This document shows, piece after piece, positions 52,782-55,176 of a stretch of 64,000 nt of DNA; the stretch's first letter is position 1, and the number at the start of each line of letters is the position of its first letter. The notes below the pieces were generated by a model. The model was not told the DNA's origin. It ran no database searches and saw only the letters and a list, made by a program, of their open reading frames with translations. Source of the DNA: Polynucleobacter meluiroseus (GTDB taxonomy: Bacteria; Pseudomonadota; Gammaproteobacteria; Burkholderiales; Burkholderiaceae); contig NZ_OANS01000004.1 of assembly GCF_900205755.1 (NCBI RefSeq), positions 1-64,000 of the forward strand. The letters run 5' to 3'. Both the position numbers and the translations under genes were made by a program.

Positions 52782-54350
52782 TTAGGCCATAGCAGCTTCA
52801 GGCACTTCTAAGCGAATGAGGTAATCAAATGCACCCAATGAGGCCTTCGCGCCTTCGCCCATCGCAATAATGATTTGCTTAAAGGGCACTGTAGTGCAGT
52901 CTCCGGCCGCAAAGACACCCGGCATGGAAGTTTCGCCTTTATCGCTCACCTTAATTTCACCTCTGGGCGATAAGTCAATGCTGTCCTTAAGCCATTCAGT
53001 ATTTGGCAACAAGCCGATCTGCACAAAAATCCCTTCGAGCTCAACCACGTGCTCTGTCTTAGTGGCGCGATCTTCATACTGCAAACCGGTCACTTTGCTG
53101 CCGTTACCCAAGGCCTCTTTAGTCAAGGCATTTTTAATGACAGTCACATTAGGCAAGCTATATAACTTATTCTGCAATACCGCATCGGCGCGCAATTTAG
53201 TATCGAATTCAATTAAGGTGACGTGACTAACAATGCCCGCTAAATCAATCGCAGCCTCTACACCAGAATTACCACCACCAATGACAGCCACGCGTTTGCC
53301 TTTATACAAAGGACCATCACAATGCGGGCAGTAAGCTACGCCCTTGTTGCGGTATTCTTTTTCGCCTGGCACATTCATTTCTCTCCAGCGTGCGCCTGTA
53401 CTGATAATGACGGATTTGCTTTTGAGGATGGCGCCATTCGCTAACTCGACTTCAACACCATGATCGGTCTTATGAATTGCTTTTGCCCGCTGAAGATTCA
53501 TAATGTCCACGTCATAGGTCTTCACATGCTGCTCAAGCGCCTGCGTTAACTTCGGCCCTTCAGTTTCTTTTACTGAGATGAAATTCTCAATGCCCAAGGT
53601 ATCCATGAGCTGTCCGCCAAAACGTTCGGCAACAACGCCAGTATGGATGCCCTTGCGCGCTGCGTAAATCGCGGCAGCAGAACCAGCAGGGCCACCACCG
53701 ATTACGAGTACGTCGAACTCTTCTTTGGCGTTGAGTTTTTTAATGGCTTCTACAGGGCTACTTGTATCGAGCTTGGCAACGATCTCTTCGGTGCTCATGC
53801 GGCCCTGACCAAATACTTCGCCATTCATGATCACGGTAGGCACCGCCATAATTTCATACTGATCAACCAAGCCTTGATACAGCGCGCCGTCAATCATTTC
53901 GTGTTCAACGTTGGGATTTAATGCTGCCATCAAGTTAAGGGCTTGGACAACATCGGGGCAGTTATGGCAAGACAAAGAGATGAAGGTTTGAAAATGCAAT
54001 TTCCCTTGCAAACCCTGAATCTGCTTAATGACTTCCTCTTCTACCTTCGGCGGGTAGCCGCTGGCTTGCAAGATGGCCAAGATAAAAGAGGTCATCTCAT
54101 GGCCCATTGGAATACCTGAGAAGGTAATACGTGCGGCCTCACCAGTTTTGCCAACAGTAAAGCTGGGAACGTGGCTAGATTGGCCATCAGTCTGCACAGT
54201 GATTTTGTCGGATTGCTCTGCTACTTCATTTAAGAGTTCGAGCATTTCAGCTGCTTTGGGGCTGTCGTCCAAGCTCGCAATGAGGGTAATAGGGGCAACT
54301 ATCCTCTCAAAATATCCCTTTAATTGGGCTTTAATATTGTTATCTAACAT
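52782..54350 (-). CDS. ahpF: Alkyl hydroperoxide reductase subunit F
   Basis: A 522-residue flavoprotein that reduces AhpC with NAD(P)H. The N-terminal double thioredoxin-like domain carries Cys128-Cys131 (LSCHNCPD). A linker leads to the FAD domain ([20 protein letters not shown] at about 215-234) and the thioredoxin reductase-like active site [13 protein letters not shown] (Cys341, Cys344). [19 protein letters not shown] binds NAD(P)H. The end has [17 protein letters not shown] 54350 is the start; the longer frame from 54434 adds a non-conserved leader through the hairpins in the intergenic region. It follows ahpC by about 130 bp. Confidence 0.95.
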
Positions 54351-54402
54351 GATTGATTCCTTAGTGTATGTGCTTATTAAGTCTGTTGTTTTGTGTATTA
54401 GT

Positions 54403-54455
54403 GAGTCTATTGGAGAGGAGTAAACCCTCTCCAATAGACTCTCCGAAGAGAGTCT
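54403..54455 (-). other. Overlapping alternative hairpins between ahpC and ahpF
   Basis: Two hairpins share six bases and cannot form together. The first has a perfect 16-bp stem, GAGTCTATTGGAGAGG (54403-54418) with CCTCTCCAATAGACTC (54426-54441) and a seven-base loop. The second, met first on the ahpC-to-ahpF transcript, is AGACTCTC-UUCG-GAGAGTCT (54436-54455 counted on the plus strand), with a stable cUUCGg loop. Neither is followed by a T-run. They may protect the ahpC message end or set the ahpC to ahpF ratio. Confidence 0.75.
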
Positions 54456-54480
54456 GATTGCTTCGCGGTGCTTTGCTAAA

Positions 54481-55044
54481 TTAGATCTTGCCTACGAGAT
54501 CCAAAGAAGGTGTCAATGTTGCTTCGCCTTCTTTCCATTTAGCAGGACATACTTCACCTGGATGTGCTGCTGTGTACTGAGCTGCTTTCAACTTACGCAG
54601 AGTTTCAGCAACGTCACGGGCGATTTCATTGGAATGAATTTCAACCGTCTTGATGATTCCCTCTGGATTGATGATGAATGTGCCACGCAGTGCCAAACCT
54701 TCTTCATCAATATGTACATCAAACGCATTAGTCAAGGCATGGGTTGGATCGCCAACCAATGGGAACTGTGCTTTACCTACAGCAGGAGAAGTCTCATGCC
54801 ATACTTTGTGTGAGAAATGGGTATCGGTAGTGATAATGTAAACCTCTGCACCCATTTTTTGGAATGCAGCATAGTTCTCAGCCGCATCTTCAATTTCTGT
54901 TGGGCAATTGAAAGTAAAAGCAGCTGGCATGAAAATGAAAACAGACCATTTACCTTTGATGCTCTCATCAGTAATGGTAACAAACTTACCATTATGGAAA
55001 GCCTGGGCCTTGAATGGCTGAACTGCTGTGTTAATAAGTGACAT
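54481..55044 (-). CDS. ahpC: Peroxiredoxin AhpC
   Basis: A 187-residue typical 2-Cys peroxiredoxin that reduces peroxides and organic hydroperoxides. The peroxidatic cysteine is Cys47 in [14 protein letters not shown] (Thr44 is also conserved) and the resolving cysteine is Cys166 in GEVCPAKW; this numbering equals that of E. coli AhpC. The C-terminal [13 protein letters not shown] is the sensitive-type tail. AhpF follows on the same strand. A divergent region upstream contains a dyad and a repeated ATAGCTAT, possible sites for a peroxide regulator. Confidence 0.96.
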
Positions 55045-55121: not shown

Positions 55122-55176
55122 ATTTGATAATAGCTATCAAATAAATAGATTATAAAAATTGCCGCTCAATAGCTAT
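55122..55176. promoter_or_regulatory. Dyad and repeated ATAGCTAT upstream of ahpC
   Basis: An 8-bp inverted repeat ATTTGATA-ATAGC-TATCAAAT spans 55122-55142, and the palindrome ATAGCTAT occurs twice, at 55130-55137 and 55169-55176. A TATAAT-like box for ahpC (minus strand) lies between them at 55149-55154. Half-sites of OxyR read ATAG and CTAT; one spacing of 11 bp fits (55134 to 55145), but a full four-part site is not present. Confidence 0.4.

Follow-up and report, generated by a model that had tools for sequence, protein, structure and literature searches.

Two hairpins that share a strand between ahpC and ahpF of Polynucleobacter: a candidate processing and 3′-protection element

Introduction

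In Escherichia coli, the ahpC-ahpF junction is cleaved by RNase III, and the half-life of ahpC is reported as about 14 min in the wild type and about 6 min in an rnc mutant, with ahpF unchanged (PMC5371410). Hairpins without a U-tract also lie inside many E. coli operons where, according to a second report, they protect the upstream gene (PMC5927463). A third relevant structure is the PBC-28-3 motif, which a study whose search included Polynucleobacter genomes associated with an AhpC-like gene; it is described as lying upstream of the gene, next to the start codon, with a long stem and a conserved pyrimidine-bearing loop (PMC8632094).

Here we describe an element between ahpC and ahpF of Polynucleobacter and compare it with these systems. 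As in E. coli, it occupies a structured gap at the same junction (PMC5371410); there is no evident common sequence, however, and the E. coli gap is 244 nt long and also has a hairpin with a short U-rich tail. Like the operon-internal protective hairpins, as far as the accessible text of PMC5927463 describes them, the element is stable, free of a U-tract, located 3′ of the upstream gene and conserved in relatives, but unlike them it consists of two hairpins that share a strand, with both pairings conserved. It appears to differ from PBC-28-3, as that motif is described in PMC8632094, in its location after ahpC and before ahpF and in its short, variable loops. Elsewhere in the same genome a long GC-rich stem (L254, G000:C1:219295-219714 and upstream) ends about 25 nt before another gene of the AhpC-TSA family, whose start was chosen by script, and this stem fits the published PBC-28-3 description, within the portion available, better than the ahpC-ahpF element does.

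The E. coli junction provides a further observation. In the MG1655 gap (L211, positions 175–215), the RNase III site at 639695 lies, by our reading, within a short stem-loop, GATGCA/TGCATC, and a longer pairing, ATGCAAGC/GCTTGCAT, competes with it. This alternative pairing at the same junction comes from one genome and is a lead only; its shared arm is the first strand, whereas in Polynucleobacter it is the middle strand. Rfam gave no matches across the whole Polynucleobacter stretch at gathering thresholds, and no prior description of this element, or of the strand hand-over design proposed below, was found in searches of the open-access literature.

Results

Organization of the ahpC-ahpF junction

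The window, by which we mean the whole 64,000-nucleotide stretch of DNA that was analysed, comes from a 1.89-Mb genome and contains ahpC (54481–55044, 187 aa; ORF list and AhpC relatives) and ahpF (52782–54350, ATG at 54350, 522 aa; ORF list), both on the minus strand. The intergenic gap is 130 nt, and the order and spacing of the genes suggest that they share one transcript with ahpC as the upstream member. All parts of the element are therefore described as read on the minus strand. First comes strand S1 (CAATc-AGACTCTC), comprising an extension (54456–54460), in which CAAT of the mRNA at 54457–54460 pairs with the ATTG of S2 and the C at 54456 is bulged (folding and extension pairing counts), and the core AGACTCTC (54448–54455; inverted-repeat search and alignment of relatives). 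A TTCG tetraloop follows (54444–54447; sequence and alignment of relatives), UUCG in the mRNA, and then S2, GAGAGTCTATTGG (54431–54443; alignment, pair counts and parsimony). Next is a segment (54414–54430; inverted repeats and pair counts) in which 54426–54430 pairs with 54414–54418 around a loop at 54419–54425; it varies in relatives, with compensatory changes. S3, CCAATAGACTC (54403–54413; inverted repeats, alignment and pair counts), is followed by the ahpF leader (54351–54402; sequence and gap analysis), which has no U-run and in which AAGGA is the likely ribosome-binding site. Pairing of S1 with S2 forms hairpin H1, and pairing of S2 with S3 forms hairpin H2, whose inner stem is the variable segment; the middle strand S2 is thus common to both.

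The sequence-only reading had placed a perfect 16-nt inverted repeat at 54403–54418 and 54426–54441 and a perfect 8-nt stem at 54436–54443 and 54448–54455, and the inverted-repeat search returned both at 100%, the second with a 4-nt loop. Reading the sequence also bears out that the 8-bp hairpin, with its UUCG loop, comes first on the ahpC-to-ahpF mRNA. The hairpins do overlap as proposed, but by more than the six bases first counted: in the predicted folding H1 runs beyond 8 bp through the single bulged C, with CAAU against AUUG, and because this extension reaches into the ATTG of S2 the competition covers about 10 bases. The H2 stem of the window is 16–17 bp, and a 131-nt stretch folds 4.4 s.d. 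better than its dinucleotide shuffles (z −4.4; none of 200 as good).

Upstream of ahpC there is a CTAT-N7-ATAG sequence (window 55134–55148), a spacing that we take to be OxyR-like. It was rejected as a candidate site: among the 108 genus loci it occurs in that of the window alone, and 13 of 1080 shuffles contain it, and its occurrence in a single locus makes it probably a chance match.

Distribution of the element in Polynucleobacter and beyond

An AhpC search of the genus at E ≤ 1e-60 matched 108 of 186 genomes, and all 108 loci were taken. In every one ahpF is the next gene after ahpC, across a gap of 55–150 nt (median 105), and 107 loci, that of the window included, contain the element. 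The tables below have 106 rows, as they leave out L089, which has lost the element, and L187, an S3 variant retained among the distinct cores and included in one tally of the loops, whose H1 loop is the GNRA-type GCAA. S1 reads AGACTCTC in 97 of the 106 tabulated rows and S2 reads GAGAGTCTATTGG in 101. The H1 loop is of UNCG type in 80 of 106 (UUCG 68, UCCG 8, UACG 2, UGCG 2), and the commonest of the other loops is TTTAA (12 of 106). Lengths vary more: the H1 loop spans 3–7 nt and the S2–S3 spacer 16–25 nt in the genus loci, and across the 106 tabulated loci the S1 core starts 15–43 nt past the ahpC stop and S3 ends 24–58 nt from the ahpF start codon. A search for the three-strand layout, which makes the two hairpins mutually exclusive as had been proposed, recovered 97 of the 108 genus loci and none of 540 shuffles; this strict search misses 11 loci, L089 among them. 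In other lineages it found 4 of 73 ahpC loci, against 1 of 730 shuffles.

L089 (genome G036, a single contig) is a natural deletion of the element that runs exactly between two AATAGACTC repeats present in its relative L088. ahpC and ahpF are still adjacent there despite the loss.

A covariance model was built from 40 of the 93 distinct cores, chosen to be less than 93% alike. It matches 109 of the 186 genus genomes at E ≤ 0.1, of which 107 have E < 1e-11 and two are weak and unrelated. These two matches (G170, E 4.6e-4; G151, E 0.03) were rejected, being simple hairpins that lack the three-strand layout, in genomes that lack an AhpC match. The one in G170 (L242, G170:C42:5291-5355) has a 12-bp stem that shares the GACTCTC/GAGAGTC core and is possibly a gene-end hairpin. 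In a sample of the family the model matches 49 of 398 genomes, all of this genus (which makes up 61 of the 398 by the rows listed), and none of the other 337 among the rows listed; in a sample of the order it matches 7 of 399, again all of this genus, and none of the other 392 among the rows listed. The two samples overlap in some genomes, and the model was run with strict filters.

A broader set of 80 loci of AhpC relatives includes seven with the element. Five of these (L005, L006, L016, L024 and L028) have an ahpC identical to that of genus loci already counted. The other two, L009, from a metagenome-assembled genome named 'Burkholderiaceae bacterium', and L011, from one that carries the label Bordetella parapertussis, reach E of about 1e-16 with the model, and their ahpC genes have at most 84% identity to any of the 108 genus loci; they may come from a lineage sister to the genus, from divergent species within it or from bins with wrong labels.

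The genome of the window contains a single copy of the element. A REP-like dispersed repeat was considered and rejected on account of this single copy, and because the 17 extra sites of the 13-mer found elsewhere are all inside ORFs; S2 as the site of a regulon was rejected in the same way, as the 17 extra sites in other genomes are all within ORFs. An eighteenth extra S2 site, in G184, is the element's own S1 on the opposite strand.

Both pairings appear to be selected in the sense RNA

On the ahpC tree, the parsimony steps per site are 0.31 for S2, 1.1 for S1, 1.7 for S3 and 16.8 for the third codon positions of ahpC, such that S2 changes at a rate about 50-fold below the latter. S2 is the most frozen of the strands, as would be expected if every change in it must suit two partners. 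Changes in S2 include one in L115, to a base that keeps a G-U pair, and one in L183, which breaks one pair of H1.

One-sided changes in S1 and S3 number 23 by hand count, which leaves out the three-strand joint change described below and reversals, and which scores L090 as three S3 changes where there may have been one deletion. In fourteen of them the sense RNA still has a G-U pair, and the other nine break pairing, all nine at stem ends: four at the outermost base of S1 and five in the last two bases of S3. Among the one-sided transitions, 14 of 15 give G-U in the sense RNA (p = 0.027, taking the expected share as 13/19 from our own site count). In the antisense RNA the same changes would set A against C without pairing, which makes it likely that the element works in the sense mRNA. 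In L177, L178 and L184 all three strands have changed together (AGGCTC/GAGCCT/AGGCTC); the tree puts this on the branch to a group of seven genomes, the rest of which show the common form or are absent from the table, and it thus represents one or two events.

The comparison of relatives for compensatory changes, which the sequence-only reading had proposed as its check, bore out H2 by covariation and H1 by near-invariance. For H2, 92.2% of cells in the 40 cores are paired; six pairs have changed on both sides, a number equalled by 36 of 500 shuffles, and there are 36 doubly changed cells against 17.4 in the shuffles, none of the 500 being as high. Two bases of the inner stem are mismatched in roughly half of these 40. 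For H1, 99.1% of cells in the same 40 cores are paired and the one doubly changed pair is matched by 82 of 500 shuffles, so that near-invariance is what speaks for it. Its extension switches recurrently between CAATn, CAAT and CCAT along the tree, yet 100 of 106 loci keep it paired, compared with 428 of 2120 shuffles. H1, as judged from these alignments, is backed by conservation, the kept extension and its loops more than by covariation. From the slow change of S2, the changes that keep G-U, the confinement of breaks to stem ends and the joint three-strand change, it appears that selection acts on both the S1:S2 and the S2:S3 pairings of the sense RNA.

The same patterns bear on whether the element acts as DNA, as a palindrome bound by a protein or as repeats that template switching keeps alike, the RNA having no role. 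Quasi-palindromes can be corrected by template switching, and the deletion in L089 has its ends exactly in AATAGACTC repeats, both of which would suit such an origin. The loops, however, vary in length (both the H1 loop and the S2–S3 spacer), UNCG-type H1 loops predominate, and the hand-counted one-sided transitions favor G-U pairs on the sense strand, and we regard a DNA-level element as very improbable.

Predicted states of the transcript

When each hairpin is folded separately, H2 is the stabler of the two in 105 of 106 loci, with a mean of −24.0 kcal/mol against −16.2 kcal/mol for H1. Folding within the mRNA, with S3 present, favors H2 in 74 of the 106 loci and H1 in 25 and gives an intermediate in seven, so that rest in H2 is not predicted for every locus. 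In three genomes the predicted folding of a growing transcript was followed: H1 forms first in all of them, the window and L137 flip to H2 once S3 appears, and L086 stays in H1. With S3 removed, H1 is predicted with P > 0.9 in all 106 loci. The unpaired 3′ tail predicted after truncation has medians of 0/2/1/3 nt with the native S1 and 1/1/1/4 nt with a scrambled one, which is no clear shortening, and only the folding energy differs.

The simplest reading of such hairpins is a plain intercistronic 3′ stabiliser, in which they act purely as barriers to exonucleases, and H1 and H2 compete just because a short sequence happens to be repeated. In E. coli many operons have U-tract-free hairpins that shield the upstream gene (PMC5927463), H2 alone is already very stable, and the predicted 3′ tail is independent of S1. 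Such a stabiliser should let the outer bases of S3 and the extension of S1 drift freely, yet these mostly keep their pairing with S2, and in one lineage all three strands changed jointly. We consider it the less probable account, with perhaps a chance worth keeping in view.

Could the two states instead control ahpF? A regulated RNA switch would have a protein, a small RNA, a ribosome or stress shift the balance between H1 and H2 and so alter ahpF output; the two kept pairings are of similar reach, S2 is almost invariant, like a sequence that is recognised, and the genes are part of peroxide defence. The predicted accessibility of the ahpF start is equal in the two states, however, differing by more than 0.2 in one of 106 loci, and this disfavors a switch on ahpF translation as a form of the RNA switch that the sequence-only reading had raised. 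Terminator-like sites were absent from all 108 genus gaps, and the range of spacings between the ahpC stop and S1 (15–43 nt) makes control by a terminating ribosome less likely. Overall a regulated switch seems unlikely. In trp-type attenuators, alternative 1:2 and 2:3 pairing has a middle strand pick between two partners, as here, but in the Polynucleobacter element neither state is tied to a terminator or to masking of a ribosome-binding site.

A partial or factor-dependent terminator between ahpC and ahpF is subject to some of the same evidence. Terminator-like hairpins with a U-rich tail occur within 200 nt after ahpC in 22 of the 73 loci from other lineages, whatever gene follows, and would make such a role in Polynucleobacter conceivable. 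Against this stand the 108 Polynucleobacter gaps, none of which is terminator-like, and the lack of TTTT within 10 nt after S3 in all 106 tabulated loci, which agree with the earlier observation that there is no U-run and that a simple terminator is unlikely. We give this explanation very little weight, the least of those considered.

Discussion

The function best supported is the processing signal or 3′ protector, with AhpC above AhpF, that the sequence-only reading had offered as one possibility; it draws on the anatomy of the junction and on the E. coli case as given in the available text of PMC5371410. A role in differential decay fits an element that combines a stable hairpin after the upstream gene with the lack of a uridine tract. 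We propose more specifically a two-state element for processing and 3′ protection that raises ahpC over ahpF, in which loss of S3 returns S2 to S1, and hold this account to be plausible, though a little short of probable.

In this proposal H1 would form during transcription and in most species give way to the stabler H2 after S3 emerges. The intact two-gene mRNA would then carry H2, a long stem that could block 3′-to-5′ exonucleases or serve as substrate for a double-strand RNase (e.g. RNase III, which the genome encodes). When S3 is cut off or chewed away, S2 would go back onto S1 and form a new hairpin near the fresh 3′ end of ahpC; the ahpC piece would be protected and the ahpF piece would decay faster, leaving more AhpC than AhpF. 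We infer that the competition between strands may serve to rebuild a 3′ barrier, and such a hand-over would explain why the complementarity of three strands persists.

Several observations count against this model. The predicted tail lengths do not set S1 apart from scrambled S1, there is little covariation in H1, nine changes break pairing, L183 breaks a pair of H1 and L089 has lost the element altogether. The 16–17 bp stem is also to be set beside the 22 nt of double strand that PMC5371410, in the part available, names as the minimum target of RNase III. A more elaborate version, in which the mRNA element is regulated, the choice between H1 and H2 responding to a protein or RNA that recognises the nearly invariant S2, or to how active RNases are during oxidative stress, and setting the AhpC:AhpF ratio through a strand hand-over that renews the 3′ barrier at each cut, is speculative and in our estimation doubtful.

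The unequal products that operons often need can be obtained by several routes, of which intergenic hairpins are one. To the known protective hairpins, the alignments suggest, the Polynucleobacter element would add a competitor strand, and a conserved competitor that shares a hairpin's strand makes it testable whether strand exchange renews a protective RNA end after cutting. Strong conservation, the one copy in its own genome and the natural deletion in G036 (L089) favor such a test. The comparison suggests that bacterial lineages treat the ahpC-ahpF junction by unrelated means, whether terminator-like hairpins, an RNase III site or the element described here; in Polynucleobacter this element has hardly changed across the genus, and it probably makes the ahpC message outlast that of ahpF.
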